From the NCBI RefSeq assembly GCF_002019735.1, contig NZ_KV917378.1:3808869-3872868 (forward strand): a stretch of DNA of 64,000 nt. Reading direction: 5' to 3'. This DNA is from Salipaludibacillus agaradhaerens (lineage in GTDB: Bacteria > Bacillota > Bacilli > Bacillales > Salisediminibacteriaceae). Positions within the stretch are counted from its first letter, which is position 1; every line of letters begins with the position of its first letter. Under the pieces are notes generated by a model. That model was not told where the DNA came from. It saw only the letters and a list, made by a program, of their open reading frames with translations, and ran no database searches. Shown here piece by piece: positions 2,179 to 56,743 of the stretch. A program made the position numbers and the translations under genes.

Positions 2179-2235
2179 ATTAATCCCTCATTTCATTCAA
2201 TGTCGTTCGTGGACTTTAGCAAAGTAACTTGTCTA

Positions 2236-2400
2236 TTTAATATAACGACCTTCAATCATTGGGCATTTTCGTACTTCTCACACTGATTGGCCGTTGAGTG
2301 AATCAGGATATTAGTGTCCGTGAGCTCCCGCCTAAATATATTTTTTATGCTCTCTATTTTGAGGCGGGTGTTTTTCAGACCGTTATCTGTGATAAAGCTC
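2236..2400 (-). repeat. Dispersed structured repeat, copy A
   Basis: Read on the minus strand, it begins TTTATCACAGATAACGG and ends near TGATTGAAGGTCGTTATA, aligning along its length with copies at 24991-25145, 27060-27204, 38008-38133 and 58060-58219. Two hairpins are visible: CCCGCCT (2327-2333) pairs perfectly with AGGCGGG (2362-2368), and CTGATT (2283-2288) pairs with AATCAG (2301-2306). It fills most of the gap between the DUF624 gene and the AraC regulator. A 71-codon open frame here (2256-2471) is only a product of the repeat. Confidence 0.8.
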
Positions 2401-2530
2401 AAGTACGGATTATGAGCTAACAGAGTTAAAGCAATGAAATAACTAGTTAAAATACAATTGGATGTAAACACAGGGTATCACAGCAAAGCTTTACATCGGG
2501 TAAAAATGACTGAAGTTCTGAGGAAATGAT

Positions 2531-2622
2531 AACGTTTGAAATTTGCCATAATTAATATATGATTTTATCTGTATATCTTTGGTAAGTTATTTTATAATGT
2601 TAATAACAACGTTTGAAAACGT
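2531..2622 (+). promoter_or_regulatory. Candidate promoter and operator region of the AraC-type regulator
   Basis: AACGTTTGAAA occurs twice as a direct repeat, at 2531-2541 and 2608-2618. The second copy is part of a palindrome, ACGTTT-GA-AAACGT (2609-2622). A good -10 box TATAAT lies at 2593-2598, but no convincing -35 is seen at 17 bp. The palindrome just downstream of the -10 suggests repression, perhaps by a LacI-type protein. This is inference from position and symmetry only. Confidence 0.4.
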
Positions 2623-2781
2623 CCCACCTACTCCTAATCCTCTTACATCAGGAAGACACGTCATGCTAATAGTCAATAATCTATGAATACGCAATATTGT
2701 AAGCGTAAACATTACTCCTTCGTCCGCCACAGTATCAGTCACTAAGCAAAAGTTTCACTGGAATTAACCGGGGGTGAAAAA

Positions 2782-41956: not shown

Positions 41957-42025
41957 GATATGACATTTGTCATATCATTTATCTGACGCTTGTGACTTAT
42001 ATGGGAAACAGATTGTAGGTATACT
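41957..42025 (+). promoter_or_regulatory. des promoter with palindromic DesR-type operator
   Basis: GATATGACATTTGTCATATC (41957-41976) is a perfect inverted repeat of 9 + 2 + 9. The -10 box TATACT lies at 42020-42025, with no recognisable -35 at 17 bp, as expected of an activator-dependent promoter. In B. subtilis phosphorylated DesR binds a short stretch upstream of the des -35. The palindrome is centred about 55 bp before the -10, in agreement. Confidence 0.7.
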
Positions 42026-42076
42026 TATAAAAGTGACAAAAATGTGTCCTTTAAAATTGTTCAGGAGGCGAGTGCC

Positions 42077-43093
42077 TTGAGTAAAGAAAGTATTGTTAAG
42101 TTAAAGAAAGAGATGGCACCTTTCGAAAAAACAGAACGAAAGATAAGTATTAAACAGATGATTAACACGTTAGGGCCTCTTGTGATTTTATGGTACTTGG
42201 CTTATTTAAGTCTTGAAGTGTCTTATTGGATGACAATCCCTTTACTTATTACGGCAGCGGGTTTTTTAGTTAGAACCTTTATTATTTTTCACGACTGCTG
42301 TCACCAATCTTTTTTCAAAAGTCGTAAAGCGAATGATATACTTGGAACAATCACAGGGATTCTAACCCTGGTTCCTTACCAACAATGGAAAAATAGTCAT
42401 AATATTCATCATGCAACAAGCAGTAACCTCGATAAAAGAGGAACAGGAGATATGTGGCTCTTAACGATAGAAGAATATGCAGCAGCCTCCATCTGGCGAA
42501 AAATAGCTTATCGCCTTTATAGAAATCCTGTTGTTATGCTAGGACTTGGCCCACTTGCAGTCTTTTGTATTGATTATCGTTTTAATACAAAGGGCGCGAA
42601 ACGAAAAGAAAGACTTAATACGTATGTGACAAACGTGTCTATCGTAGCTTTGTACGGAGCATTAATTTGGGCTATCGGTTGGCAGTCTTTTTTACTAATT
42701 CAAGGACCGATCCTACTCGTTTCTGGCATGTTAGGTATTTGGTTATTTTACGTCCAACATCAGTTTGAAGATACGTATTTTGAACATGATGACGAATGGA
42801 GTTACGTGCAGGCAGCTGTGGAAGGAAGCTCTTACTATAAGCTTCCAAAGGTGTTGCAATGGATTACAGGTAACATTGGTTTTCATCATGTCCATCACTT
42901 AAGTCCGAGAGTTCCTAACTATTATTTGGAGAAAGCGCACGAAGCCACACCACCTCTCCAAAAAGCAACGACAATAACGATTGCAACGAGCTTCAAATCA
43001 TTACGCTATCGTCTTTGGGATGAAACGACAAAATCTTTTGTTACATTTAAAGAAGCTAAGAAGTTAATGATGAAGAAAACGCACTTAGCATAG
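42077..43093 (+). CDS. des: Membrane phospholipid fatty acid desaturase
   Basis: A 338-residue membrane di-iron desaturase that inserts a cis double bond in acyl chains of membrane lipids when temperature falls. The three histidine boxes are HDCCH, HNIHH (QWKNSHNIHHATSSNLDKRG) and HHVHH, with four hydrophobic segments. It matches B. subtilis Des closely over almost all its length. The start is TTG 42077, with AGGAGGCG spaced eight bases before it; the longer frame from GTG 42044 would contain that ribosome site and is rejected. desK and desR follow at once, an arrangement the same as in B. subtilis. Confidence 0.95.
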   Translation: MSKESIVKLKKEMAPFEKTERKISIKQMINTLGPLVILWYLAYLSLEVSYWMTIPLLITAAGFLVRTFIIFHDCCHQSFFKSRKANDILGTITGILTLVPYQQWKNSHNIHHATSSNLDKRGTGDMWLLTIEEYAAASIWRKIAYRLYRNPVVMLGLGPLAVFCIDYRFNTKGAKRKERLNTYVTNVSIVALYGALIWAIGWQSFLLIQGPILLVSGMLGIWLFYVQHQFEDTYFEHDDEWSYVQAAVEGSSYYKLPKVLQWITGNIGFHHVHHLSPRVPNYYLEKAHEATPPLQKATTITIATSFKSLRYRLWDETTKSFVTFKEAKKLMMKKTHLA

Positions 43094-43193
43094 GTGAAAT
43101 GAGTGGTAATATGGGGAAAACATGCCTATATAACGCCTCATATAAGCTATAATATAGAGGAACAGAAGACGCTATAAATGGAAAAGAGGTGGG

Positions 43194-44312
43194 ATGATGA
43201 AAAATTGGACGAAAAAATTTCGAAAAAACACGGGGCTTAGTCCTTATGTTTGGGTCGTTTTTTACATCCTGCCCTTTTATTTCATTTTACAAGATTCCTC
43301 CACGTTGGAAACGATGATTGGTATTGTGATGACCATTGTTTTTTTCCTATGTTATGTCTTATCGTTTGCTTCTCATGGATGGCTTGTTTATTTGGGAGCC
43401 AGCATGCAAATTGCCATTTCAACTGCCATGAGTTTGTTGTTCGGTTACATTTATTTTTTTCTCTTTCTAGCCTTTTTTATCGGCAACCTTAAAAATAGAG
43501 TTGCCTTTTTTACGTTATACATTATTTTACTCATTACAACCTTCGGAACGAGTTACTATGGATTCCTTATGCATAGTGTTTTTATTACACAGCTTCCGTT
43601 CGTCTTTTTAAGCATTATTGCTGTTATCCTTCTACCGGTTAATACGTATAACAAAAACAAAGAGGAACAGCTTCAAGGACAACTTAATGATGCCAATAAA
43701 CGTATCGCAGAGTTAGTGAAATTAGAGGAGCGGCAACGTATATCGCGAGACCTTCATGATACCTTGGGACAGAAGCTTTCTCTGATTGGTTTAAAAAGTG
43801 ATTTAGCGGCAAAATTAGTTGAAAAAAATCCCTCAAAAGCACAGCTTGAGATTAAAGATGTTCAGCAGACAGCTAGGATCGCCTTAAAAGAAGTGCGAGA
43901 ATTGGTTATGGAAATGCGAGGGACAAAACTAAATGATGAAATCAATCGGGTTGAACAAATATTGCAAGCAGCAACGATTAAATTTCATCTTGAAAAGCCA
44001 GACGAACTACCACGTATTCCACTAATCATTGAAAATGTTGTGAGCATGTGTTTAAAAGAAGCAGTCACGAACGTCGTTAAACACAGTCAAGCATCCAAGT
44101 GCGCTATCATAATAAAAGCTTTGAAAACAGAATTAACTATTACTATTTCTGATAATGGCATTGGGATAGGAAAATCTGAACGTAATAAAAATAGTGGCTT
44201 ACAAGGGATGAAAGAAAGGCTGGAATTTGTGAACGGGCATTTGAAAATAGAGGATACTAACGGGACCAATGTCATTATTAATGTACCTGTAATAAGCAAT
44301 CGAAAGAGGTGA
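43194..44312 (+). CDS. desK: Thermosensor histidine kinase DesK
   Basis: A 372-residue kinase with four to five closely packed transmembrane helices in residues 18-155, a short coiled linker, the phospho-acceptor His in RISRDLHDTLGQ near residue 188, and a HATPase_c domain with DNGIGIG and GLQGMKERL. It is the HisKA_3 type, as DesK of B. subtilis (370 residues). Cooling or membrane thickening turns on its kinase state, which phosphorylates DesR. AGAGGTGGG precedes the two ATGs at 43194 and 43197. It overlaps the frame of the next gene by four bases if the upstream GTG were used there. Confidence 0.95.
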   Translation: MMKNWTKKFRKNTGLSPYVWVVFYILPFYFILQDSSTLETMIGIVMTIVFFLCYVLSFASHGWLVYLGASMQIAISTAMSLLFGYIYFFLFLAFFIGNLKNRVAFFTLYIILLITTFGTSYYGFLMHSVFITQLPFVFLSIIAVILLPVNTYNKNKEEQLQGQLNDANKRIAELVKLEERQRISRDLHDTLGQKLSLIGLKSDLAAKLVEKNPSKAQLEIKDVQQTARIALKEVRELVMEMRGTKLNDEINRVEQILQAATIKFHLEKPDELPRIPLIIENVVSMCLKEAVTNVVKHSQASKCAIIIKALKTELTITISDNGIGIGKSERNKNSGLQGMKERLEFVNGHLKIEDTNGTNVIINVPVISNRKR

Positions 44313-44317
44313 ATCAG

Positions 44318-44923
44318 TTGATTCGAATTATTATTGCCGAAGATCAGAAAATGTTACTCGGCGCTCTTGCTGCTTTGCTGGATTTAGAAGAGGATATGAC
44401 GGTTGTTGGTAGTGCGAGTAATGGAAAAGATGCTATAGAGCTAGTTTATAAACATCAACCAGATGTATGCATTATGGATATTGAAATGCCAATAAAAACA
44501 GGACTGGATGCTGCCGAAGAGCTGAAATTGAAAGATATAGCGTGTAAAGTCATCATTTTAACAACTTTTGCCCGAACAGGTTATTTTCAGCGTGCAGTAA
44601 AGGCGGGAGTCGATGGCTACATGTTAAAAGATAGCCCGAGTGAAGAGCTTGTGAATGCGATCAGGAGCGTCATGTCAGGAAGACGCATTTATGCACCAGA
44701 ACTAGTGGACGAATTTTATAGTACGCCGAATCCTCTTACTGAACGTGAAAACGATGTACTTCGGTTAATGGCTGACGGAAAAAGTACAAAAGAAATTGCA
44801 GATTTACTACATTTAACAAATGGTACAATTCGAAACTATATCTCTTCCATTCTTGAGAAACTTGAAGTCAGTAATCGTATTGAAGCGATTACGCGCTTTA
44901 AAGAAAAAGGTTGGTTTAAATGA
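44318..44923 (+). CDS. desR: Response regulator DesR
   Basis: A 201-residue NarL/LuxR-type regulator. The receiver has IIIAEDQKMLLGALAALLDL, the phospho-acceptor Asp in DVCIMDIEMP near residue 54, and LKDSPSEEL. The LuxR helix-turn-helix is LTERENDVLRLMADG through GTIRNYISSILEKLEV. It activates des transcription on phosphorylation by DesK. The start is TTG 44318, spaced seven bases from AAGAGGTGA and lining up with the B. subtilis N-terminus; GTG 44309 is an alternative. Confidence 0.93.
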   Translation: MIRIIIAEDQKMLLGALAALLDLEEDMTVVGSASNGKDAIELVYKHQPDVCIMDIEMPIKTGLDAAEELKLKDIACKVIILTTFARTGYFQRAVKAGVDGYMLKDSPSEELVNAIRSVMSGRRIYAPELVDEFYSTPNPLTERENDVLRLMADGKSTKEIADLLHLTNGTIRNYISSILEKLEVSNRIEAITRFKEKGWFK

Positions 44924-45199
44924 TTCTGTCATAACAAATGTTGATATGTTCACTAGACATTTACTCGCATCTAGGCAAAGGTATTACTGGATATAATCTT
45001 GTGATGTCTTTCTCGTCCTCAGGAATTTTATGTTGAAAAAGCAGCGACATCACGATAGAAACGGTCAGCCAGTATCGGATTCAAGTCATTTTTTTTGAAT
45101 TATCGAGCGCATAAATAATCACATCATAACGCAGTTTAATTGTATTTAATGGTAAGTGTAATGGTGAAATACTTGTAATGTTCTGGAAAGAATGTATTA
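44924..45199. other. Intergenic region with one inverted repeat
   Basis: No gene is seen. GTGATGTC (45001-45008) faces GACATCAC (45046-45053) across 37 bases, of unknown meaning. Confidence 0.45.
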
Positions 45200-45234
45200 T
45201 AAAATAAAAAAGCTCCGCCATTGGCGAAGCTTTA
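45200..45234 (-). terminator. Terminator of the NSS transporter gene
   Basis: AAGCTCCGCC (45210-45219) and GGCGAAGCTT (45223-45232) pair with one mismatch, and the minus-strand exit has a run TTTTTATTTT. Confidence 0.9.
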
Positions 45235-45243
45235 CACGCTATT

Positions 45244-46596
45244 TTAAAATAAACCGATGGAGCTTAAGAAAATAATTAAGATGGCGATTGGCGCAATCGT
45301 TCGTAAAATAAATATCCACGTATGTCCAATCCATGTATCTCCAAAATCTGATGCTTCCATAGCCTCTGCTTTGTTCCAGCCTATCCCCACGAATAACGCA
45401 ATAAGCAAGCCACCTAGCGGCAAGAAAATGTTAGATGCAATAAAGCTCATGGAGTCTAAAATATCTCGACCGCCAATTAACGTCACATGGTCTAGCGCTC
45501 CATATCCGAGTGAGGAAGGAATACCAATTAAGAAAATGATTCCTCCAATGATGACAGCGGCTTTTTTTCTAGACCAGTTGAACTTTCTCATAAAATAAGC
45601 GACGGCTACTTCCAGCAATGAAACCCCAGAAGAGATGGCAGCTGCTGTAAGTAGGAAGAAGAACAATGTACCAAACACAACCCCTAAGCTCAAGCTATTG
45701 AAGATATCAGGAAGTGTAATGAACACGAGTCCAGGACCTGAATTTGGCGCATTTCCAAATGCAAATACAGCAGGAAAAATCATTAAGCCTGCTAAAATGG
45801 CAAACAGGGTATCAAGTGTCACGACACTAACAGCAGCTCCTGGCAGCTTCTCTTTATTTGATAAATAACTTCCATACGTAATCAAAGCACCCATCCCGAG
45901 ACTTAATGAGAAAAATGCTTGACCGAGAGCTGCTAAATAAACATTTGGATCTCTTAATGAACTCCAGTCTGGTGAAAATAAGAAAGACAACGCTTCTTGT
46001 GCACCGCCTAATGTTAAACTATAACCAGCTAAAAGAATGACGAGAATCGCTAGAAGTGGCATAAAAATTTTATTTGATTTCTCAATCCCTTTCTTAACAC
46101 CGACGTACACAATGCCAATTGTTAATATCATAAAAATAGATTGCCAAATTAACGGTGAATAAGTACTCGTATGAAATTCAATGAAATAACTTTCTGAACC
46201 ACCTTCACCACTAATAGCTGGCCCACCTAAAACGTACTGGAAGAAATAATGCAAAGCCCATCCGGCGACCACCCCGTAAAATGACAGGATGATGAAGGCG
46301 GATGCGACTCCTAAAAATCCAGTAACGAACCAAGGAGTTCCTGGTGCTAACGTTTCAAATGATCCGACAACATCACTTTTTGCTCGGCGACCAATTGTAA
46401 ATTCAGCCATAAGAATAGGAATTCCAATAGCGATGATACATAAAATATAAAGAAGTAAAAATGTACCTCCACCACTTTCACCTGCTACATAAGCAAAGCG
46501 CCATATATTTCCCAGTCCGACGGCAGATCCCATGGCGGCAAGAATAAAGCCGAGTCTTGATCCCCACTGTTCGCGGCCTGTGTTTAAATCGTTCAC
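45244..46596 (-). CDS. Sodium-dependent transporter, NSS (SNF) family
   Basis: A 450-residue transporter with about eleven to twelve helices, like bacterial MhsT and YocR types. The unwound TM1 motif for sodium and substrate, AAMGSAVGLGNIWRFAYVAG, is near residues 20-39. Such proteins co-transport amino acids or small amines with sodium, as suits a haloalkaliphile. It is divergent from a PucR regulator and the ectoine-hydrolase-like cluster, so it may import the substrate of that pathway; this is inference. GGAGGAAAC precedes the ATG. Confidence 0.9.
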   Translation of the reverse strand: MNDLNTGREQWGSRLGFILAAMGSAVGLGNIWRFAYVAGESGGGTFLLLYILCIIAIGIPILMAEFTIGRRAKSDVVGSFETLAPGTPWFVTGFLGVASAFIILSFYGVVAGWALHYFFQYVLGGPAISGEGGSESYFIEFHTSTYSPLIWQSIFMILTIGIVYVGVKKGIEKSNKIFMPLLAILVILLAGYSLTLGGAQEALSFLFSPDWSSLRDPNVYLAALGQAFFSLSLGMGALITYGSYLSNKEKLPGAAVSVVTLDTLFAILAGLMIFPAVFAFGNAPNSGPGLVFITLPDIFNSLSLGVVFGTLFFFLLTAAAISSGVSLLEVAVAYFMRKFNWSRKKAAVIIGGIIFLIGIPSSLGYGALDHVTLIGGRDILDSMSFIASNIFLPLGGLLIALFVGIGWNKAEAMEASDFGDTWIGHTWIFILRTIAPIAILIIFLSSIGLF

Positions 46597-46841
46597 GAAT
46601 GTTTCCTCCTTTAAAACGTTGAAGTGTAAAAATAATAACTTAAATACTATAACATATTGTGCAACATATTTGTCAGTTAATTAAGATTTTTTACTATAAA
46701 GTTTGAGTGTAAGTCATCCAGGGATTATATACGTGCTTGGATTGTCAACGAGCGTATTTCATGAGAAAATTTCTTAATAGTTCAATTAGCAGAATATTAT
46801 AAAATTTCTTTTGAGAAGTCAATTATAAATGAGGTGAGAGA

Positions 46842-48521
46842 ATGGGGTTAACAGCACATAAAATCGTTCAATTACCTTTATTAAAAGAGGCTATAGTTTT
46901 AACGGGTACTCCTTATTTAAAGGAGACACCGATTGAGTGGATATCTGTGATAGAAATGCCTGTAGAAAACTTTGTAAGGGAAAATGAATGTGTATTAACA
47001 ACTGGTATTGGTTGTCATGGAGACACGCTGTTGTTAAAACAGTTTGTGAAAGATGTCATTCAATCGGGAGCGTCTATGCTTGGAATTGCTACCGGACGTT
47101 ACATATTTGATTTGCCTCAAGAGATCATCCAATTGGCAGAAGAGCATCAGTTTATAATTGTGGCGGTCCCTTGGGAAGTAAGGTTCGGTGATATTATGCA
47201 TAAGGTTTTAGAAGAGATAAATCAAGATAAGAAAATAGAACGTCAACTGACTGAAGAAATTCGCCGGGAATTAATTAATGATGTTCTGCAAGATAAAGGG
47301 CTTCAAGAGATAGCGGAAGTCATTGTAAAGCATATTAATGTGCCAGTAGTCATTACAGATTATGCCCGTTACGTCCGTGCAGCCAAACCAGTCGAGACAG
47401 AAACACTTAAGAAATTTCAGCAAGACGACAAGGTCCCTTTGTCAGCTAATGAATCACCAAATGTCACCTATATTGAACATCCGTTGTACCCTCACATTGA
47501 AGGCTATTATGTCCATGGCGAGAAATGGTATCAAGTGTTAATTTCGACAAATCACCGAAAACAGGGATTTTTATGGTTTACATTACCTGACAATAAACCG
47601 TTATCGTGGTTCATGATGAACGTACTTGAACATGGGATAACCGCCTGTGCCCTCTATTTTTTAAAAGAGAATGCGATTGAAATGACTGAAATTAGACTCA
47701 AAGATAATTTTATTTTAAAGTTAGCGAAAGAGCAGAACAGTGACTTACGGGAGCTTATGTCTAAAGGGGAATTATTAGGTTATGATTTAAAATGCACTTA
47801 TATTTGTATTGTCGGTGAAATTCGCCTTCGTGAAAAAACAGCCTCTTTTGCTAAATTTAAGCAAGATCGTCCGCCCACATCCTCTTTACAAAGCTTAAAC
47901 TATTACATCCAAAAAGAAATTACACATGCAGCACGACTTATCGGGCGGAAGGCAATGGCCACATTTGATGAGGATGAGGTGATTATCTATTTACAAACCG
48001 ATCATCACCTTCATACAGAAACAGCGAACGAATTTTTAGATACCATTGAGCGGAGGTTAAATGAGTTATTAACGGAAGTGGTATTAGTTTGGGGAATTGC
48101 GGCCCAAAAAAGCGAGCAAGGAGGGTTTCATGAAAGTTATAATGAAGCTAAAAACGCGCTTGAGTTAGGTAAAAAACAACATGGTGGGGGAGAGCGGACT
48201 TTTTTTAAAGATACTCGAATTAATAGAATTCTTCTAGCTGTGGCTGATCATAAAGATATCATTCATGTCGTCAAAGAAACGATTAAACCTCTTATTGAGT
48301 ATGATGAAAAAAGGCAAACAGATTTAATCCACACCTTTATGACTTACAATAAACATAAAGGTAACGTCAGTCAAACGGCAAGAGAATTAAACCTTCATCG
48401 CCAATCGTTAATTTATCGACTAAGAAACATTGAATCATTAACCCAGCTTTCGCTCATTAATGGAGAAGATATCTTTTTGTTAGAGTTATGTATTCGGTTA
48501 TGGCAATTACGAGTAACCTAA
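46842..48521 (+). CDS. PucR-family transcriptional regulator
   Basis: A 559-residue regulator with an N-terminal PucR domain (residues about 5-125, ECVLTTGIGCHGD), a central GGDEF-like CdaR region, and a C-terminal helix-turn-helix HTH_30 (NVSQTARELNLHRQSLIYRL) near residue 507. The family regulates catabolism of purines, amino acids and related nitrogen compounds. The ribosome site is GAGGTGAGAG before the ATG. It lies between the divergent NSS transporter and the downstream enzymes on the same strand, so it most likely controls one or both. AAAATTTCTT is repeated at 46766-46775 and 46801-46810 in its upstream region. Confidence 0.87.
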   Translation: MGLTAHKIVQLPLLKEAIVLTGTPYLKETPIEWISVIEMPVENFVRENECVLTTGIGCHGDTLLLKQFVKDVIQSGASMLGIATGRYIFDLPQEIIQLAEEHQFIIVAVPWEVRFGDIMHKVLEEINQDKKIERQLTEEIRRELINDVLQDKGLQEIAEVIVKHINVPVVITDYARYVRAAKPVETETLKKFQQDDKVPLSANESPNVTYIEHPLYPHIEGYYVHGEKWYQVLISTNHRKQGFLWFTLPDNKPLSWFMMNVLEHGITACALYFLKENAIEMTEIRLKDNFILKLAKEQNSDLRELMSKGELLGYDLKCTYICIVGEIRLREKTASFAKFKQDRPPTSSLQSLNYYIQKEITHAARLIGRKAMATFDEDEVIIYLQTDHHLHTETANEFLDTIERRLNELLTEVVLVWGIAAQKSEQGGFHESYNEAKNALELGKKQHGGGERTFFKDTRINRILLAVADHKDIIHVVKETIKPLIEYDEKRQTDLIHTFMTYNKHKGNVSQTARELNLHRQSLIYRLRNIESLTQLSLINGEDIFLLELCIRLWQLRVT

Positions 48522-48821
48522 TAGAAGTTGAATTTAAGCGTTTGTTTTGGAAATGAAAGTATAAAATAATAAGAGATCCCATTCATCTACCGGCTTATTA
48601 TACGAGCTGGTTTCTTTGTGTGAGATAAATTGTTTAAAGGCGGCATTCAGATAAGTGCCGAGGATGAAGCAGGTATGTTAATAGAGGCGGATATATGAAT
48701 GTGTATAAAAGGTCGCAAAGAAAGTTCATACACTTTGCACATGACATTATGTTAGCCATTTTAATATAGTAATAGTACGAAATATCTAAAAATTCTGCAA
48801 TTTGAGAAAGGTGGATTGAAT
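48522..48821. other. Upstream region of the ectoine-hydrolase-like gene
   Basis: No gene is seen. CGGCA (48641-48645) and TGCCG (48656-48660) form a small hairpin. AAGGTGG near 48809-48815 is the ribosome site of the next gene. I could not identify the promoter with confidence. Confidence 0.4.
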
Positions 48822-50030
48822 ATGCTGCCGTTTGATTTAATTGAATATCAAAAGCGCCTTCATAAAACAAAATCCCAAATGGAGAAAAAGGGCATTGAGG
48901 TTCTGTTAATAACTGATCCGGCTAACATGAACTATTTAACAGGTTACGACGCCTGGTCGTTCTATGTACATCAAATGGTAGCCGTTATCATTGACGAACC
49001 TCAACCCATTTGGTTAGGCCGTTTTCAGGATGCTAACGGTGCGAAATTGAAAACATGGTTGTATGAAGAGAACATCATCGCCTATCCTGATTACTACGTC
49101 CACTCGGACAGCTATCATCCTATGGACTTTATGGCGAGAATATTAACTGAAATAGGTCAAGGGAATAGACGTATTGGGATAGAAATGGATCATTACTATT
49201 TTTCAGCGAAGGCGTTTGAACAACTGAGACTGGGACTTCCAAATGCAGAATTTATCTCAGCCGACTTATTGGTGAATGGTGTTCGGTTAATTAAGTCAGA
49301 TAAAGAAATTGAGTATATGGAGAGAGCAGCTCGCCTTGCGGAACAGGCGATGTACCACGGTATTGAAACAATTAGAGCAGGTGTACGAGAATGTGAAGTA
49401 GCAGCTAAAATCTATTACTATATGATAGCTGGAACAGAGGAGTTTGGAGGCGATTACCCGGCAATAGTACCTTTATTACCATCTGGGAAAAACACAGGGA
49501 TTCCTCATCTTACATGGACGGATAGAAAGTTGGACGAAGGGGATTCCATTGTCATAGAGCTGGCTGGTTGTTATCACCGGTATCATGCCCCGCTTGCAAG
49601 AACAGTTAGTATAGGGGCACCGCCTCCCGCCTTAGAGGAATTAGGACCGATCGTGACAGAAGGTGTTAATCGTGTACTTGATGCAGCAAAACCAGGCGTT
49701 ACATGTGGCGAACTAGAGGAGGTATGGCGAAAAATCATTCGCAAATATGGCATCGAAAAAGAAGCCCGACTTGGCTACTCCGTTGGTCTAGGGTACCCGC
49801 CAGATTGGGGTGAACATACAGCTAGTATTCGGCGTCATGATAAGACAGTCCTTCAACCGAATATGACGTTTCATCTTATTCCAGCTCTCTGGTTTGATCA
49901 TTATGGTCTAGAAATTAGTGAAACGTTCAAGGTATCAGAAAGTGGTTCTGAGACATTAACTCAATTTTCACGTGAATTAATTGTCAAGCATCCTTTTATG
50001 ATACCTCATCAAGATGGTGAAATATCTTGA
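48822..50030 (+). CDS. doeA: Ectoine hydrolase-like M24-family enzyme (DoeA/EutD type)
   Basis: A 402-residue enzyme of the creatinase/Xaa-Pro peptidase (M24) family. The N-terminal stretch ITDPANMNYLTGYDAWSFYV, DANGA, IGIEMDHYYFSA, the GGDYPAIVPLLPSGK segment and YPPDWGEHTASIRR resemble ectoine hydrolase DoeA strongly. DoeA opens the ectoine ring to N-acetyl-2,4-diaminobutyrate without needing metal. The usual M24 metal ligands are not obviously kept, as expected for DoeA. The ATG is preferred over an in-frame TTG six bases earlier because AAGGTGG is spaced better. It starts a run of four same-strand enzymes, though the canonical partners DoeB and DoeD are missing, so the true substrate remains uncertain. 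Confidence 0.75.
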   Translation: MLPFDLIEYQKRLHKTKSQMEKKGIEVLLITDPANMNYLTGYDAWSFYVHQMVAVIIDEPQPIWLGRFQDANGAKLKTWLYEENIIAYPDYYVHSDSYHPMDFMARILTEIGQGNRRIGIEMDHYYFSAKAFEQLRLGLPNAEFISADLLVNGVRLIKSDKEIEYMERAARLAEQAMYHGIETIRAGVRECEVAAKIYYYMIAGTEEFGGDYPAIVPLLPSGKNTGIPHLTWTDRKLDEGDSIVIELAGCYHRYHAPLARTVSIGAPPPALEELGPIVTEGVNRVLDAAKPGVTCGELEEVWRKIIRKYGIEKEARLGYSVGLGYPPDWGEHTASIRRHDKTVLQPNMTFHLIPALWFDHYGLEISETFKVSESGSETLTQFSRELIVKHPFMIPHQDGEIS

Positions 50031-50148
50031 AACGAATAAATGATCAGATGATGTGAATCTGGTAACCTTCGAGGATAAAAAAGATTAATGAAGCCCGTTT
50101 TAAAACTTAGTAACTACTTTTACTAACCATACTAAGGAGGCGTTAATT

Positions 50149-51348
50149 ATGAAGCAACCGAATATCGGAACACAATCTATCTGGGCAGGGGAAAATGACT
50201 ATCTAGCATTTGGGGCTACACAAGTGCCAGTCGTTCACAGTGTCTCTTTTGGGTATGATGACATGGATGACTGGTATGACGTAGCTGTAGGACAAAAAGA
50301 GGGTCACATTTATGGGCGTAATACGAATCCCACTGTTCAGGCATTTGAAGAAAAAATTAAAATTCTTGAAGGTGCAGAATCAGCTACTTCCTTCTCCACA
50401 GGAATGGCCGCGATCAGTAATACATTAAGTACGTTCCTGTTTCCTGGAGATAGGATAGTATCCATTAAAGACACTTACGGTGGAACGAATAAAATTTTTA
50501 CAGAGTTTTTACCTAAGCAGCAAGTGGAGGTCATGTTGTGTGAGACGGGAGACCATGAGGCTGTAGAAGCAGAGTTGGCAAAAGGCTGCCAGGTGCTGTA
50601 CCTTGAAACACCGACAAATCCTACAGTGAAAATCACCGATATTAAACGGCTTGCTAAAGCGGGAAAAGAATCGGGAGCAATTGTTATTGTAGATAATACA
50701 TTTGCAACACCAGTGAACCAACATCCTTTAGCATTAGGCGCTGACCTTGTGATCCACAGTGCAACGAAATTTTTAGGGGGGCATGCTGATGCGCTAGGGG
50801 GAGCATTATGCGGTTCTAAAGAATTAGTGGAAAAAGTGTATCACTATCGGGAAATCAATGGAGCGACACTTGATCCAATGGCGGCCTATTTGCTATTACG
50901 AGGTATGAAGACGTTGAAGTTACGAGTGGATAAGCAAAATGAGAATGCTATGGCTGTGGCACGCTTTTTACAAACCATTGACATGGTAAATGAGGTTTTT
51001 TATCCAGGGCTTGATTCACATTCAGGCCATGAGATAGCAAAGGAGCAAATGTCAGGATTTGGCGGGATGTTAAGCTTTTCCGTTCGTGGTGGTGTAGATA
51101 CAGTGAGGCATTTATTGCCAAAACTAAAATATGCTAATCGTGCAGCCAATTTAGGCGCAGTAGAAACGATTGTGGGCCCAGCGAGGACGACGAGTCATGT
51201 TGAGTGTACACCAGAGGAGCGAGCTGCTATGGGAATACCAGAAGGTTTAATCCGTTATTCGGCAGGTATTGAAGACATTGAGGACCTTATTGCTGATTTA
51301 CAGCAAGCGTTTGCTGCTTTACCGGCAGATGTTGTGATAAAAGCATAA
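50149..51348 (+). CDS. PLP-dependent transsulfuration-family enzyme (cystathionine gamma-synthase/lyase type)
   Basis: A 399-residue Cys/Met-metabolism PLP enzyme. Motifs are YGRNTNPTVQAFE near residue 54, SFSTGMAAI near 83, the aspartate loop IVDNTFATP near 180, and the PLP Lys in IHSATKFLGGHAD near 205. The family catalyses gamma- or beta-elimination or replacement on amino acids with a leaving group at C-gamma. In this cluster it may act on a homoserine derivative or a 2,4-diaminobutyrate-type compound; reaction and substrate are unknown. AAGGAGGCG precedes the ATG. Confidence 0.85.
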   Translation: MKQPNIGTQSIWAGENDYLAFGATQVPVVHSVSFGYDDMDDWYDVAVGQKEGHIYGRNTNPTVQAFEEKIKILEGAESATSFSTGMAAISNTLSTFLFPGDRIVSIKDTYGGTNKIFTEFLPKQQVEVMLCETGDHEAVEAELAKGCQVLYLETPTNPTVKITDIKRLAKAGKESGAIVIVDNTFATPVNQHPLALGADLVIHSATKFLGGHADALGGALCGSKELVEKVYHYREINGATLDPMAAYLLLRGMKTLKLRVDKQNENAMAVARFLQTIDMVNEVFYPGLDSHSGHEIAKEQMSGFGGMLSFSVRGGVDTVRHLLPKLKYANRAANLGAVETIVGPARTTSHVECTPEERAAMGIPEGLIRYSAGIEDIEDLIADLQQAFAALPADVVIKA

Positions 51349-51386
51349 TGATGTTTAAGTAAGGCCATACGAACGGAGGTACTGAT

Positions 51387-52472
51387 ATGAAAATAGCATT
51401 CATTGGCTTTGGCGGTGTAGGGCAAGCTCTTGTGCAAATGATTGGCGATACGAAGAATACATTGTTAGAGGAAGTCGGAATGGAAATAGACATTGTAGCC
51501 GTATCAGATATGATGAAAGGGGCTGTCTATGACCCTAATGGGCTTGACGGAACGCTTCTTCTCGACACTATTGCACGTCATAAAGATCTGATGTATTACC
51601 CTGATACAGCTCATACTGTGAAAGGGATGGATAGTTTTGAAACAATTAAGCACTCGAATGCAGACATGATCGTTGAAGTCACTTACACGGATGTGGTGAC
51701 AGGACAACCGGCAATCGATCATTGTCGACTTGCATTTGAAAATGGTAAAAGTGTTGTCACAACTAATAAAGGGCCAGTGGCTATGGCATATAAAGAGCTT
51801 AAAGCATTGGCGGAAAGAAACACCCTTTTCTGGGGATTTGAAGGGACCGTCATGAGTGGTACACCTGCATTAAGGCTTCCATTCACGACATTAACTGGAA
51901 ATACGATAACAGAAATAAACGGTATTTTAAATGGTACGACCAACTATATGATCACTGAAATGGAGCGTGGGCTTAGTTATGAGGAAGCTTTAAAAACAGC
52001 TCAAGCGAGAGGCTATGCGGAAGCAGACCCAACGAGCGATGTGGCAGGTTATGATGCTCGTTACAAGGCGGTGATACTTGCGAATGTTATTTTAAAACAT
52101 CACATAACAGCAGAAGAGGTAGAATGTACTGGAATTGAAGATATAACGGCATCTATGGTAAAAGAAGCGGTGTCTAATGATAAACGGTGGCGGTTAATCG
52201 CCACACTGAAACGGCATGAAACAGGAGTGGAAGCATCTGTAGGACCAAAATTACTTGATAAAGATCACCCATTAGCAACGATTACCGGTGCAACGAATGC
52301 GATTGTTTATAACTGTGATTTAGCTGGACCCATAATGCTTACAGGGGCAGGGGCAGGCTTAACCGAAACTGCCTATTCTTTACTCATTGACCTTATTAAT
52401 GGATACAAATCAGTTTATCATCAAGCAAGTCAAAAGGTGGTGCATGAGCATGCAGATACAAGTTCGGACTGA
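51387..52472 (+). CDS. Homoserine dehydrogenase-like enzyme
   Basis: A 361-residue NAD(P)-dependent dehydrogenase with the Rossmann motif GFGGVGQALVQM, TTNKGPVA near residue 121, and the catalytic segment NGTTNYMITEMERG and GYAEADPTSDVAGYDARYKA, keeping the conserved Asp and Lys. No ACT regulatory domain is present. It interconverts aspartate-semialdehyde and homoserine in its family. Here, downstream of an ectoine-hydrolase-like gene, a catabolic role is suggested, drawing on aspartate-semialdehyde, the usual end of ectoine breakdown. ACGGAGGTACTG precedes the ATG. The stop overlaps the next gene. Confidence 0.85.
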   Translation: MKIAFIGFGGVGQALVQMIGDTKNTLLEEVGMEIDIVAVSDMMKGAVYDPNGLDGTLLLDTIARHKDLMYYPDTAHTVKGMDSFETIKHSNADMIVEVTYTDVVTGQPAIDHCRLAFENGKSVVTTNKGPVAMAYKELKALAERNTLFWGFEGTVMSGTPALRLPFTTLTGNTITEINGILNGTTNYMITEMERGLSYEEALKTAQARGYAEADPTSDVAGYDARYKAVILANVILKHHITAEEVECTGIEDITASMVKEAVSNDKRWRLIATLKRHETGVEASVGPKLLDKDHPLATITGATNAIVYNCDLAGPIMLTGAGAGLTETAYSLLIDLINGYKSVYHQASQKVVHEHADTSSD

Positions 52473-53904
52473 AAAAATGCTTGTTGCAGGAAATTGGCTG
52501 GAAGCACGGACGATGTTCGATGTTATTAATCCACAAAACAATGAGGTGATAGCAAAAGTCCCTAAAGCAACAGAAAAAGATATGATGAGAGCCATTGAGA
52601 AATCTGAAGAGGCATTTCGTCATTTAGCTTCATGGCCTACACATGAACGTATAAAGGTACTGCAAAAAGCAGCTGATTATGTTGCGAACAATTTTGAGAA
52701 TTTTGCTGAAACGATTGCTTTAGAAGGAAGTAAAACCATTAATGAAGCGAGGAGTGAGGTGACACGAACGATTCAAACATTAAACATAAGTGCGGAAGAA
52801 GTGAGACGATTAAAAGGTGAAACGTTGAATTTCGATCAGAGGGAAGGAAGTGAAAATAGAACAGGGTACTATTACCGATTTCCCATTGGTATTATTGCTG
52901 CCATCACCCCATTTAATGATCCTTTGAACCTCGTAGCGCATAAAGTGGGGCCAGCTTTAGCAGCAGGTAATCCGATTATTGTTAAACCTGCCTCAAACAC
53001 ACCACTAAGTGCTTTATTGCTAGCAAAAGCGTTAGATGAGGCAGGTGTTCCGAAAGGGTTTTTATCTGTTGTGACAGGGGCTGGGAGCGACATTGGAGAT
53101 ACTCTTATAACCCATCCATTTGTAAAAATGGTGTCCTTTACAGGCGGCTTTGAAGCAGGGGAAAAAATTGCCCACAAAGCGGGATTAAAAAAGGTTGCAA
53201 TGGAGTTAGGATCTAATTCTCCCGTTATTGTTTTAAAGGATGCGTGTCTATCGGATGCTGTCATTTCCACTGTTTCAGGTGCGTTTTCAGCAGCAGGTCA
53301 AAATTGTTTAGGGGTTCAACGAATTTTCGTAGAGGAATCTGTTTATAAGCCATTTATTTCTGCATTTGTTGACCGAACAAAAGAATTAACTGTTGGTGAT
53401 AAAATGTCTGAATGGACGGATGTAGGCCCATTAATTAATGAGAAAGAAGCTAAGCGAGTAGAAACATGGATCGAGGAAGCGGTTTTTGAAGGAGCAGTCA
53501 TTGAGACAGGGGGTAGACGTGAGGGAGCATATATTCAACCAACAGTTCTTACACATGTTTCACCTCAGTCCACCATTTATCAGGAGGAAGTTTTCGGGCC
53601 TGTCGTTATGATTGAAGCGGTGGGACATCTGAAGGAGGCAATAAAAAAAGCGAATGATGTGAATTATGGCTTACAAGCAGGTATTTTCACAAAAAATATG
53701 GATCATGCTTTTTATGCTGTTCACCATCTTCAGTCTGGTGCCGTGATGGTTAATGATAGTAGTGATTATCGAATTGATGAGATGCCTTTTGGAGGTGTGA
53801 AAGGCTCGGGGCTAGGCAGGGAAGGTATACGGTATGCCATTCATGATATGACAGATCCAAAGGTAGTTTGCTTCAAGATTGATAGCATGTGGGGTGTGTC
53901 TTAA
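52444..53904 (+). CDS. NAD(P)-dependent aldehyde dehydrogenase (DoeC-like position)
   Basis: A 486-residue ALDH-family enzyme. The N-terminal nucleotide-binding region has ITPFNDPLNLVAHKVGPALA and IVKPASNTP; the general base Glu is in MELGSNSP, and the nucleophile Cys in SAAGQNCLGVQRIF. It has a typical FGPVV closing motif and GGVKGSGLGREG. In ectoine catabolism DoeC, an ALDH-family enzyme, oxidises aspartate-semialdehyde to aspartate; this gene could fill that role, but specificity cannot be read directly. ATG 52444, with AAAGGTGG upstream, overlaps the end of the preceding gene by 29 bases. A second ATG two codons on is possible. Confidence 0.85.
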   Translation: MSMQIQVRTEKMLVAGNWLEARTMFDVINPQNNEVIAKVPKATEKDMMRAIEKSEEAFRHLASWPTHERIKVLQKAADYVANNFENFAETIALEGSKTINEARSEVTRTIQTLNISAEEVRRLKGETLNFDQREGSENRTGYYYRFPIGIIAAITPFNDPLNLVAHKVGPALAAGNPIIVKPASNTPLSALLLAKALDEAGVPKGFLSVVTGAGSDIGDTLITHPFVKMVSFTGGFEAGEKIAHKAGLKKVAMELGSNSPVIVLKDACLSDAVISTVSGAFSAAGQNCLGVQRIFVEESVYKPFISAFVDRTKELTVGDKMSEWTDVGPLINEKEAKRVETWIEEAVFEGAVIETGGRREGAYIQPTVLTHVSPQSTIYQEEVFGPVVMIEAVGHLKEAIKKANDVNYGLQAGIFTKNMDHAFYAVHHLQSGAVMVNDSSDYRIDEMPFGGVKGSGLGREGIRYAIHDMTDPKVVCFKIDSMWGVS

Positions 53905-53929
53905 CTGAATATGTTTTTTCTTTAAAATA

Positions 53930-53985
53930 AAAGCCTCTAACACCTGTTGTTCAACTCTAACGGCGTGTGGGAGGCTTTGACGTTT
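53930..53985 (+). terminator. Probable terminator after the aldehyde dehydrogenase
   Basis: AAAGCCTC (53930-53937) pairs with GAGGCTTT (53971-53978), with ACAC and GTGT inside and GACGTTTTA after. The loop is long and the T-run short. Confidence 0.6.
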
Positions 53986-54037
53986 TATTAATGTATGTTA
54001 AAAATATAAACGTCTTTAGAAATGTAGTATACTTAAA

Positions 54038-54095
54038 TTTATCCCACTCTTAAGGGGGAGTAAAACCCCACTGATTGAAGGTTCGTTTTATGTTT
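54038..54095 (+). repeat. 32-bp dispersed repeat copy 2 with structured-repeat tip
   Basis: Bases 54038-54069 match 24115-24146 except for one base. They are followed directly by CCCACTGATTGAAGGTTCG and TTTTATG, the 3' end shared by the structured repeats at 16111, 27060, 38008 and 58060. Two repeat types therefore join here. Confidence 0.75.
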
Positions 54096-54124
54096 TTACA
54101 AGGCAAGTGTGACGTTTCCGGGTG

Positions 54125-54217
54125 AATGACGTCATTATATATTAGAGAAACTTCTTAATGGAAAAATCGATGTCTACTAGGTGTTAGACAGCTACAGCAA
54201 TGCTGATTCTGACACCT
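54125..54217. other. Palindrome and hairpin upstream of the hydrolase operon
   Basis: AATGACGTCATT (54125-54136) is a perfect 12-bp palindrome. AGGTGTTAGACAGC (54179-54192) pairs with GCTGATTCTGACACCT (54202-54217) nearly throughout, giving a strong hairpin followed by TCTTTC. It may be a small transcript end or a leader structure; no gene was seen within 53986-54369. Confidence 0.45.
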
Positions 54218-54369
54218 TCTTTCATGCGCAAGAATATGATAAAATAATACACGGGAAAATAGGCCAAAAAACCATATGTAGAACGAATAAACACAAGGGT
54301 ATTTAGCGTACATATAAGGATTGAAAAGAGACTTACTACAATGCGGATAAATAAATGAGGAGCGCCAAT

Positions 54370-55143
54370 ATGAAGATTGAGTTAACAGATGTCACATTAA
54401 ATTATCATGTTTCTGGGGAAGGACAGGAAATTATCCTCTTACATGGATGGGGAGCAAACATTGCAGCGGTTGCACCTATCCATAAAAATCTTGAGCAACA
54501 CTTTAAAGTATACAGTCTCGATCTGCCAGGGTTTGGTGAAAGTACTGAGCCCCCTTCACCATGGCGTGTTAAAGATTTTACTAATGCGCTGCGTGAATTC
54601 GTTGAGAAAATGGGAATTGAACACCCTATTCTTATGGGCCACTCCCACGGAGGCAGGATCGCTATCATGTATACCGCTACTTATGGGGATGTTAATAAAG
54701 TCATCCTTGTAGACAGCGCTGGCATAAAGCCGAAGCGTAAAGCAAGCTATTATGTAAAAGTTTACACATATAAAGCGGCGAAAAACATATTGAAGCTACC
54801 AGGTTTGAACAAGTATAGAGAGAAAATCTTATCTAATATGAAAGCTAAAGTAGGCTCTACTGATTATAAAAATGCCAGTGGTGTCATGCAACAAACACTT
54901 GTGCAAGTAGTCAATGAAGACTTGCAACATTTAATGCCAAAAATAACTGTTCCAACCTTGCTTATTTTTGGTGAAAACGACACTGCCACTCCTGTTTCTC
55001 ACGGTAAGCGAATGGAAGAGCTTATACCGGATGCGGGTCTTGTTGTCTTAAAGAACGCAGGGCACTTTGCTTACCTTGATCAGTTACATCAATTTAATGT
55101 GATCGTAAATACATTCTTAGAAAAGGACCGAAGGAGCTCGTAA
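54370..55143 (+). CDS. Alpha/beta-fold hydrolase
   Basis: A 257-residue soluble hydrolase. The oxyanion-region motif LLHGWGANI, the nucleophile elbow GHSHGGRI, an acid Asp in FGENDTATPV and the His in NAGHFAYLDQ complete the triad. ATG 54370 follows GAGGAGCG. It ends one base before the Mur-ligase gene, so the three genes of this operon are translated together. The substrate is unknown; association with peptidoglycan-precursor-type enzymes suggests an ester or amide on a related molecule. No signal peptide is present. Confidence 0.88.
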   Translation: MKIELTDVTLNYHVSGEGQEIILLHGWGANIAAVAPIHKNLEQHFKVYSLDLPGFGESTEPPSPWRVKDFTNALREFVEKMGIEHPILMGHSHGGRIAIMYTATYGDVNKVILVDSAGIKPKRKASYYVKVYTYKAAKNILKLPGLNKYREKILSNMKAKVGSTDYKNASGVMQQTLVQVVNEDLQHLMPKITVPTLLIFGENDTATPVSHGKRMEELIPDAGLVVLKNAGHFAYLDQLHQFNVIVNTFLEKDRRSS

Positions 55144-55144
55144 T

Positions 55145-56743
55145 ATGACTATTAAAATTATTTTTTTTACACTACTATTAATTACATGGATATTGCCTGT
55201 CGTTTTAAAAACAAAGCGAAGTGTTCATATGCTTCAGCTAAACTCATACCGAAATGAAAGGTATGGAAAATGGATTAGTCAAAATCGTCCGAAGGTCTTT
55301 CCTTCTTTAGAAGGATTATATATTGTCCCTATCGTTTTGGCACTATTAGTTGACTCTCCAGCCGTTGTATTAGGAAGTGGTGGGCTGATATTTTTAGGTA
55401 TCTACCTTTATTTTAGAAACAGCCAGCAAACAGAAAAGAAAAAACTTGTTTATACGCAGCGTGTCCAGCGCTTGCTTGGAACGACTTATATTATGTATGG
55501 TCTAACAGCAGCAGGAGCGATTATAGCAGGTGCGTATCTCAATTTACTAACGGCACTTATCATTTTAATTTTGGCAGCAGTTTTACCTTACTACATTATC
55601 ATGTTTGCGAATACGATTAACCGTCCTATTGAAGCGAGAATTAGTCAGGGCTTTGTGAATGATGCAAAACGATTGCTTAAAGCCTCTCCAGAGTTAAAAG
55701 TGATCGGAATTACTGGAAGCTTCGGTAAAACAAGTGTTAAACACTTTGTTCATGCGGTTTTATCCTCTAAATATAATGTCTTAATGACGCCTGAAAGCTA
55801 TAACACAAAGCTTGGCGTTACTAGAACGATAAACGAACAGCTAAAACCATATCATGACATTTTTATTGCAGAAATGGGAGCTAAGCAAGTAGGAGATATT
55901 AAAGAAATATGTGACATAGTAGATCACCAATATGGCATTTTAACAGCGGTTGGTGAGCAGCACTTGGACACATTTAAAACACTTGATAATATTAAGAAAA
56001 CGAAACATGAAATCGTTGAAACATTGCCAGAAGACAGTGGTGTAGCTATCTTGAACAAAGATGATAAAAATATTATGTCCTATACACCGCAAAACCCTTG
56101 TCGTAAAGTTTATTATGGCGTAGAGCGAGAAGATGTGGATCTCCATGCGAGTAACATTGCCTTCAGTTCAAAAGGGATGACGTTTACCGTTACGACGGCT
56201 AGTGGGGAAACAGAAAGATTTCTGACACGGTTATTAGGTAAACATAATGTCTATAACATTCTTGCGGCACTTGCTATCGGTTTAGAAATGGGGCTAAAGT
56301 TAAAGGACATGGCACGTGCAGTTAAACAAATGGACCCTGTCCCTCATCGATTAGAATTAAAACGATCCACCGGAAATATTACGATCATTGATGACAGTTT
56401 TAACTCCAATCCTGTGGGCTCCAAAATGGCAGTAGATGTTCTTGGACGTATGGAGGGCTATCGTATGCTTATTACGCCCGGGATGATTGAACTAGGTGAT
56501 AAAGAATTTGACATTAACAAAGAATGGGCTCGTTACTCAGCAGATAAATGTGATTTTATTATACTCGTTGGTAAAAAACAGACGTTGCCACTTCAAGAAG
56601 GATTAAAAGAGGCCGGCTATCCTGAAAATCAATTTTACGTAGCGAGTGATCTACAGGACGCTCTTCGGAAAATGCACGAAGTGGCCCAAGCAAATACAGT
56701 CGTTCTGCTGGAAAATGATTTACCTGATACATTTAATGAGTAA
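55145..56743 (+). CDS. Membrane-anchored Mur ligase-family enzyme (MurF-like)
   Basis: A 532-residue protein. Residues about 1-155 contain three or four hydrophobic segments (IIFFTLLLITWILPVV, LYIVPIVLALLV, ALIILILAAVLPYYIIMF), replacing the UDP-binding N-terminal domain of standard MurF. The Mur ATP-binding and C-terminal domains follow: P-loop GITGSFGKTSVK near residue 190, AEMGAKQVGDI, the TAVGEQHLDTF region, and DDSFNSNPVGSKMA with PGMIEL near residues 414-446. It would join an amino-acid or dipeptide unit to a carboxyl on a membrane-bound acceptor. The gene lies between a hydrolase and a Ddl gene, suggesting a dipeptide made by Ddl as the donor. It is not the main murF by layout. Confidence 0.82.
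   Translation: MTIKIIFFTLLLITWILPVVLKTKRSVHMLQLNSYRNERYGKWISQNRPKVFPSLEGLYIVPIVLALLVDSPAVVLGSGGLIFLGIYLYFRNSQQTEKKKLVYTQRVQRLLGTTYIMYGLTAAGAIIAGAYLNLLTALIILILAAVLPYYIIMFANTINRPIEARISQGFVNDAKRLLKASPELKVIGITGSFGKTSVKHFVHAVLSSKYNVLMTPESYNTKLGVTRTINEQLKPYHDIFIAEMGAKQVGDIKEICDIVDHQYGILTAVGEQHLDTFKTLDNIKKTKHEIVETLPEDSGVAILNKDDKNIMSYTPQNPCRKVYYGVEREDVDLHASNIAFSSKGMTFTVTTASGETERFLTRLLGKHNVYNILAALAIGLEMGLKLKDMARAVKQMDPVPHRLELKRSTGNITIIDDSFNSNPVGSKMAVDVLGRMEGYRMLITPGMIELGDKEFDINKEWARYSADKCDFIILVGKKQTLPLQEGLKEAGYPENQFYVASDLQDALRKMHEVAQANTVVLLENDLPDTFNE

Follow-up and report, generated by a model that had tools for sequence, protein, structure and literature searches.

A DoeA-type gene block of Salipaludibacillus agaradhaerens and a proposed homoserine route of ectoine breakdown

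Ectoine is in widespread use as an osmolyte and as a nutrient. In Salipaludibacillus agaradhaerens (assembly GCF_002019735.1, contig NZ_KV917378.1, a genome of 4.32 Mb in one contig), a stretch of 64,000 nucleotides, hereafter the window, carries at positions 45244-53904 a block of six genes that includes a relative of the ectoine hydrolase DoeA, and this block is proposed to break down ectoine by way of homoserine. Next to DoeA lie a pyridoxal phosphate (PLP)-dependent enzyme, a homoserine dehydrogenase (HSD) and an aldehyde dehydrogenase (ALDH). In related clusters the PLP enzyme and HSD are mutually exclusive with a class III aminotransferase, and for this reason the pair most likely does the job of the transaminase DoeD. 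We are highly confident that this is an operon for ectoine or hydroxyectoine, and the whole homoserine route of ectoine breakdown, in which DoeD is replaced by two enzymes, is judged to be just on the probable side. The six protein families assigned to this place by a preliminary description were all confirmed by the gene list and by profile scans:

45244-46596, minus strand: transporter of the NSS (sodium:neurotransmitter symporter) family (NF037979, 127.7 bits, cut-off 50; PF00209)
46597-46841, no strand: intergenic region common to the NSS gene and pucR, read from the sequence
46842-48521, plus strand: PucR-family regulator (PF07905, PucR N-terminal; PF17853, GGDEF-like; PF13556, HTH_30)
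48522-48821, no strand: intergenic region 5' of the operon, with promoter-like hexamers at 48741-48770 (scan counts equal to those of shuffles) and a ribosome-binding site, AAAGGTGG, at about 48807-48814
48822-50030, plus strand: predicted DoeA-like M24 ectoine hydrolase (TIGR02993, 476.7 bits; open reading frame from TTG 48816)
50149-51348, plus strand: PLP enzyme of the cystathionine-gamma-synthase fold, PRK08249 (NF006097, 741.9 bits, cut-off 600)
51387-52472, plus strand: HSD without an ACT domain (NF004912/PRK06270, 419.3 bits, cut-off 373)
52444-53904, plus strand: ALDH (PF00171, 531.2 bits; open reading frame from TTG 52387)

Judged from the sequence, the probable start of DoeA is ATG 48822, preceded by AAAGGTGG, rather than TTG 48816; for ALDH, ATG 52444 or 52450, which gives an overlap with the 3' end of the HSD gene, is a likelier start than TTG 52387.

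In the proposed scheme, DoeA would open ectoine to N-acetyl-diaminobutyrate, from which a deacetylase (in most relatives an M20 amidohydrolase) would release diaminobutyrate (DABA). The PLP enzyme would then act much as canavanine gamma-lyase does: elimination of the gamma-amino group would turn DABA into an intermediate of the vinylglycine type, and addition of water to it would yield homoserine, with ammonia as the other product. HSD would convert homoserine to aspartate semialdehyde and ALDH would convert the latter to aspartate, with PucR probably controlling the operon and the NSS transporter as the likely importer. We infer each of these reactions, above all that of the PLP enzyme, as well as the direction of HSD, a deacetylase in the lineage of the window and the import function of NSS. 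Since ALDH can fill the place of DoeC, the enzymes replaced would be DoeB and DoeD.

The observations behind the scheme concern gene content, conservation, co-occurrence, an aminotransferase swap and conserved residues. The swap is seen in a Bacilli genome (G406) that has DoeA in the order PucR-DoeA-M20-ALDH-BCCT-class III aminotransferase, with neither PLP enzyme nor HSD; a search of this genome, the only one with the aminotransferase to be so checked, gave no match to the PLP enzyme elsewhere. DoeA was found in 31 of 200 searched genomes of the same family, yielding 33 loci (a second DoeA of G228, near the first, was not taken separately). The PLP enzyme and HSD are both present at 23 of these loci, 21 of which have M20 and 21 ALDH, while seven have the class III aminotransferase without either of the two. 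At no locus is the aminotransferase combined with the PLP enzyme or HSD, and HSD never occurs without the PLP enzyme. All seven aminotransferase loci (L159, where the aminotransferase gene spans 2016-3371, L195, L196, L207, L221, L223 and L224) retain M20, ALDH and DoeA, with PucR. Six of their seven aminotransferases share 72-88% identity with that of G406, which misses the cut-offs among the best 25 of its 63 profile matches. Two genomes (G543 and G571) each have one locus of the PLP type and one of the aminotransferase type. The simplest reading is that DABA can reach aspartate semialdehyde by either of two routes, one through the PLP enzyme with HSD and the other through the aminotransferase, with the same deacetylase before and the same dehydrogenase after.

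The PLP enzyme is also closely paired with DoeA over a wider range of bacteria. In an even sample of 398 Bacilli genomes (393 of them with a completeness of 90% or more and a contamination of 5% or less), in which the four best first-look candidates per genome were scored, the PLP enzyme was found in 39 genomes (E 1e-140) and DoeA in 36 (E 1e-100), the latter spread over 29 of the 145 genera. Both were present in 34 genomes, the PLP enzyme only in five, DoeA only in two and neither in 357; in all 34 genomes with both, the PLP gene lies 52 to 3,752 bases from the nearest DoeA. A similar picture was obtained from the best 80 of 520 relatives retrieved with an alignment of 14 PLP proteins, a set of named loci chosen for similarity (76-85% identity), some of them cut by contig ends. 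DoeA is present at all 80 (79 under a strict placement rule), HSD at 72, ALDH at 71, M20 directly after the PLP gene at 66, PucR at 65, a EutC-type cyclodeaminase at 42 and EutB at 32; DoeB, with the Klebsiella protein as query, was found at none of the 80. The usual order is DoeA-(EutC)-PLP-(M20)-HSD-ALDH, and the full version, on a Priestia plasmid, reads pucR-eutB-M24-cyclodeaminase-PLP-M20-HSD-ALDH. Because these fuller relatives add eutB, a EutC-type gene, M20 and Ehu transporters, ectoine or hydroxyectoine is the likely substrate. A Klebsiella plasmid (L062:737-10176) carries ehuABCD, a regulator-like gene, doeA, doeB and then a PLP enzyme 62% identical to that of the window, with an IS5 transposase gene downstream. 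The regulator-like gene, annotated as a PLP-dependent aminotransferase family protein, is taken for an EnuR-type regulator. In the 19-kb stretch of this plasmid neither doeC nor doeD is listed in a gene table that is incomplete. The PLP gene of this annotated ectoine cluster thus stands after doeB, where the function of DoeD is needed.

Within the family of the window's species, 35 genomes, with the window's own counted among them, were searched for DoeA (E 1e-60), the PLP enzyme (E 1e-90) and HSD (E 1e-50). Thirty-two of them have both DoeA and the PLP enzyme and the other three have neither; HSD occurs in 27, every one of which has DoeA. In one draft genome (G018) DoeA and HSD are in split frames. 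Among the neighbourhoods of DoeA in 30 other genomes of the family, DoeA-PLP-HSD-ALDH stand together in 23, with PucR in 22 cases, so that the gene order is not peculiar to the window's genome and the run is not due to chance. In two of the 30, PucR-DoeA-HSD-ALDH remain together while the PLP gene lies at another place in the genome; five have DoeA-PLP without HSD and ALDH. At three loci (L033, L037 and L038) the DoeA-PLP pair stands alone, with no PucR, HSD or ALDH nearby; at L033 its neighbours are xanthine-dehydrogenase-like genes, identified from their starts alone. At L039 and L040 the PLP gene is flanked by two DoeA-like genes, the second an M24 paralogue, and HSD and ALDH are absent.

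The absence of DoeB that had been noted for the block holds for whole genomes, the DoeB profile (TIGR02994) finding no match in any of the 35, the own one included; among 14 control genomes there was one archaeal match, under the cut-off. The absence of DoeD holds for the block (45244-53904) and fails for the genome: a search for both genes elsewhere gave no doeB and did give a DABA transaminase, which is over the cut-off in all 35 genomes and whose own copy (G000:C1:582740-584002) adjoins ectC and is presumably ectB. As ectC is likewise present in 35 of 35, bacteria of this family can make ectoine. For the hydroxyectoine gene EutC, none of the 35 genomes has a match over the cut-off and two have weak ones; no genome-wide search was made for EutB. 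In four of the 35, an M20 amidohydrolase that shares about 50% identity with the Priestia enzyme lies between the PLP enzyme and HSD. The own genome has a single M20 match (E 1e-60), 37% identical to the Priestia protein and away from the block (G000:C1:1163454-1164623).

The HSD of the block passes the PRK06270 profile, as listed above, and shares with the biosynthetic-type hom of another genome (G014), in an alignment, the four HSD motif residues (Lys, Glu, Asp, Lys), which we take to be the catalytic ones. It lacks the ACT domain and has an insert in common with the HSDs of Rhizobium pRL8 and CB3060 that is missing in the biosynthetic-type hom. The HSD of pRL8 is 46.6% identical to that of the window, and has the same insert and an adjoining ALDH gene. 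By its position, it is presumably the protein encoded by pRL80071. In PMC10228743 (citing Liang 2022), an HSD with orthologue pRL80071 in strain 3841 is placed in a group that strongly favours the oxidation of homoserine. The HSD of the window is therefore proposed, by its resemblance, to work in the oxidative direction. The ALDH is of a generic kind, meeting no NCBIfam cut-off among the best 25 of 45 matches; its retention in all seven aminotransferase-type DoeA clusters goes with its proposed role as an aspartate-semialdehyde dehydrogenase in the place of DoeC. The suggestion of the preliminary description that the route runs through a homoserine or aspartate-semialdehyde branch gains support from the aminotransferase swap, from this kinship of HSD with a homoserine-oxidising group and from the close pairing of the PLP enzyme and DoeA.

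The family name PRK08249, whose profile the PLP enzyme passes, implies no specific reaction. The closest solved relatives are methionine and cystathionine gamma-lyases. The profile of methionine gamma-lyase (TIGR01328) is not reached (378.3 bits, cut-off 549.7), and the enzyme has YGG where methionine gamma-lyase has YGC, replacing a Cys that we take to be important in the latter; Arg234-Glu235 and Gly112 here correspond to Lys-Asp and Cys in methionine gamma-lyases. Ordinary transsulfuration was rejected, as the named subfamilies other than PRK08249 miss their cut-offs among the best 25 of 50 matches. Lys207, Tyr110, Tyr55, Arg57, Arg369, Glu339, Thr340, Arg234 and Glu235 are identical in all 122 distinct homologues of the DoeA-bearing set, which includes the window's own enzyme and three copies detached from DoeA, while the Klebsiella relative differs in having Gly at 339 and Cys at 346. 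The Schiff-base lysine, the leaving-group tyrosine and the arginines for phosphate and carboxylate are all kept, the roles of the residues other than the tyrosine being our assumption. For methionine gamma-lyase, PMC9307983 names this tyrosine as the residue likely to serve the leaving group as acid catalyst. The PLP enzyme is proposed to be a DABA gamma-lyase or hydrolase that yields homoserine.

For the first step, the closest solved relative of the window's DoeA is the DoeA of Halomonas elongata (6twk, E 7.8e-115). An alignment with this characterised enzyme finds the blocks GGDYPAIVP, PHLTW, RYHAP, YPPDWGE, TFH and GLEI.E, presumably the DoeA pocket, all present in the window's protein. 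In an alignment with 1pv9, residues that we take to be the dinuclear metal ligands of M24 prolidases are lost, and the window's enzyme is probably metal-free. The 36 DoeA positions that were compared had been chosen from columns already invariant and give no independent test. The lyase DddP for dimethylsulfoniopropionate (DMSP), also an M24 protein, was rejected as an identity of the hydrolase (23.9 bits against 600). DoeA-like M24 proteins about 56% identical to that of the window are also found in haloarchaea (L063:8001-10503 and L064:7986-10460), adjoining glutamate dehydrogenase; BCCT, RidA and aminotransferase genes are near the one in L064.

Several observations weigh against the homoserine route or loosen its support. 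The association of the PLP enzyme with DoeA across Bacilli has a Fisher p of 2e-41 that disregards shared ancestry, and the seven aminotransferase loci come from just three genera. One of the 33 loci of the swap set has the PLP enzyme without HSD; two more (L219 and L220) have none of the PLP enzyme, HSD or aminotransferase and carry eutB, DoeA, a EutC-type gene, M20, ALDH, ehu and aspartase. In the second DoeA-only genome of the Bacilli sample (G089), DoeA sits among unrelated genes, with no partners in 17 kb. The Priestia cluster is also imperfect by profile: EutB meets PRK07476 (435 bits, cut-off 413) and misses TIGR02991 (388.9 of 413.35), the cyclodeaminase meets PRK08291 (500.4 of 408) and misses the EutC profile TIGR02992 (426 of 471.65), and M20 misses DoeB2, NF038260 (232.5 of 550). 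In the window's genome no deacetylase was identified, the searches giving no DoeB and one distant M20. No position distinguishes the PLP enzymes of DoeA-less genomes (four distinct) from the 122 of the DoeA-bearing set, so the substrate is not readable from the sequence; and ammonium at the gamma carbon is a poor leaving group.

The rival explanations differ in what they make of the PLP enzyme. The chemistry could be canonical with scattered genes, a non-dedicated amidohydrolase removing the acetyl group and EctB or another aminotransferase giving aspartate semialdehyde, while the PLP enzyme and HSD belong to a side branch that supplies, for example, threonine or methionine. The DABA transaminase of all 35 family genomes, which in the own genome could perform the DoeD step without the PLP enzyme, is what such a scheme needs, and PMC3187862 has it that loss of DoeD in H. 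elongata merely slows growth on ectoine, other transaminases being thought to cover for it. However, the joint presence or absence of the PLP enzyme and DoeA in 35 of 35 genomes and the absence of both the PLP enzyme and HSD from seven of seven aminotransferase clusters are not expected of a side branch, and this explanation is regarded as unlikely. Alternatively, the PLP enzyme might act directly on N-gamma-acetyl-DABA, which has a free alpha-amine, to give acetamide and homoserine, so that no deacetylase is needed; this would suit a genome without DoeB or a cluster M20 and the 14 of 80 named loci that have no M20 after the PLP gene. It is decidedly unlikely, since M20 follows the PLP gene directly in the 66 others and is kept in every aminotransferase cluster, which points to deacetylation first, since the PLP gene of the Klebsiella cluster comes after DoeB, and since acetamide too is a poor leaving group.

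The closest solved relatives of the PLP enzyme would agree with a simple gamma-lyase reaction from DABA to 2-oxobutyrate and two ammonia, in which case HSD and ALDH would have some other substrate. So would the five of 32 family genomes that have DoeA and the PLP enzyme without HSD, which count against the homoserine route as well. Such an enzyme would leave unexplained why HSD is present at 72 and ALDH at 71 of the 80 named loci, and why HSD never occurs without the PLP enzyme in the 33 swap loci or the 35 family genomes; it is thought quite improbable. There is, finally, the proposal that the block degrades another cyclic amidine or a gamma-substituted aminobutyrate. The window's DoeA scores 476.7 bits against the curated cut-off of 613 of the DoeA equivalog profile, and a DoeA-less PLP-HSD-ALDH set lies beside an S-methylmethionine-permease-like gene and a homocysteine S-methyltransferase. 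The DoeA of Priestia, though in a cluster that contains eutB, is likewise under that cut-off (530.8 of 613). The relatives with eutB, EutC-type and EhuB genes, the ehuABCD-doeA-doeB-PLP order of Klebsiella, the conserved motif blocks of DoeA and the organism's own ability to make ectoine (ectC present in all 35) speak against a substrate other than ectoine, which is considered very unlikely; the earlier alternative of another cyclic amino acid is accordingly not favoured. The homoserine route is retained as the preferred account.

The import step is less constrained. At the named loci the transporters are BCCT in 11, MFS in eight, EhuB in five and NSS in four, and NSS is divergent from pucR in 14 of the 30 family neighbourhoods. 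The BCCT and MFS families both include known ectoine transporters; to our knowledge, the NSS family has not been tied to ectoine. Because the importer slot varies between Ehu, BCCT, MFS and NSS, and Ehu is annotated as an ectoine transporter, it is a reasonable guess that NSS may be the importer for the pathway.

The PLP-HSD-ALDH set is also found without DoeA, standing together in all five PLP-only genomes of the Bacilli sample. Three of them have a GntR-like gene (identified by its start alone) upstream and also carry an S-methylmethionine-permease-like transporter (663.6 bits against a cut-off of 716, one scanned); in two of the three a homocysteine S-methyltransferase comes next (450.8 bits, cut-off 215, one scanned). 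Such loci (L153:7959-14164, L156:7959-14164 and L155:7875-13192) possibly represent a sulfonium-splitting, homoserine-forming route. A fourth genome has an amino-acid permease (PRK10836, 685.6 of 735), a family we take to be lysine permeases, with an aspartase-like gene, and the fifth, on a contig of 6.7 kb, has M20 and an aspartate ammonia-lyase (721.9 bits, cut-off 681.2). The HSD-ALDH cassette looks portable, then, and lies beside aspartase in two of the five. A wider proposal, offered tentatively and with some doubt, is that PRK08249-type enzymes would hydrolyse cationic gamma-substituted aminobutyrates (DABA, possibly S-methylmethionine or others) at the gamma carbon and feed homoserine to this cassette, that Bacillota would thus have a second, independently assembled solution for ectoine breakdown, and that NSS would be its ectoine importer.

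Promoter and terminator scans of the region gave match counts at the level of shuffles or chance and were not used as evidence; no Rfam match to a riboswitch was found in 42000-56000. The neighbouring stretch of the window (42044-44923) holds an ordinary DesKR-like set, with a delta-5 desaturase DesA (607.2 bits, cut-off 500) followed by histidine-kinase-like and response-regulator-like genes that were named by reading, unscanned.

The analysis joins these co-located genes in a single testable scheme, in which a PLP family without a specific reaction receives a predicted substrate and product; the natural swap predicts complementation by the aminotransferase. If the scheme is true, the fold of the transsulfuration enzymes gains a new reaction, the presence of HSD in these operons is explained and an aminotransferase label is corrected.

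The block can be compared with several known systems. The likeness to the canavanine pathway lies in a PLP gamma-lyase giving homoserine, canavanine gamma-lyase being described as such in PMC10018355 (citing Hauth 2022). A plasmid of a Leucaena Rhizobium (L067:1754-12826) carries a B3/4 protein, an ABC transporter, a PLP enzyme, HSD, ALDH, a dapA-annotated gene and an aspartate ammonia-lyase, and from its B3/4 gene we infer a canavanine cluster. Canavanine degradation was rejected for the window, as its PLP enzyme is 37.6% identical to that of the B3/4-linked cluster with a different motif at 110-114, the block has no B3/4 gene and DoeA is the constant partner. The HSD-ALDH pair of Rhizobium pRL8, where the incomplete gene table of a 17-kb stretch lists no DoeA or cystathionine-gamma-synthase-family gene, and the canavanine-type cluster together indicate that HSD and ALDH form a homoserine-to-aspartate cassette elsewhere. 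A pucR-eutBCD-atf cluster of Bacillales with abgB-thrA-adh, lacking eutE, was published in April 2026 as a putative, tentative ectoine catabolism set (PMC13188858). It resembles the block in PucR, DoeA/EutD, the PLP enzyme, HSD and aldehyde dehydrogenase and in having no eutE/doeB, whereas its eutBC and abgB are missing from the block; by gene order, 'atf' would be this PLP enzyme and 'abgB' M20. In its accessible portion, HSD is described in the reductive direction and no homoserine route is proposed, and the words NSS and sodium are absent from its main text. Among the listed titles and abstract openings of the open-licence literature, no proposal of a homoserine route for ectoine or diaminobutyrate was found. 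With doeABCD of H. elongata and eutDE-ssd-atf of Ruegeria, the block shares a first step of the DoeA type and a last step of the ALDH type; it differs from them in having no DoeB or DoeD, in having the PLP enzyme and HSD in the place of DoeD, and in having PucR instead of EnuR/AsnC. The gene set itself has thus been in print since 2026, and new here are the homoserine route, the evidence of the swap and the re-reading of the PLP enzyme.

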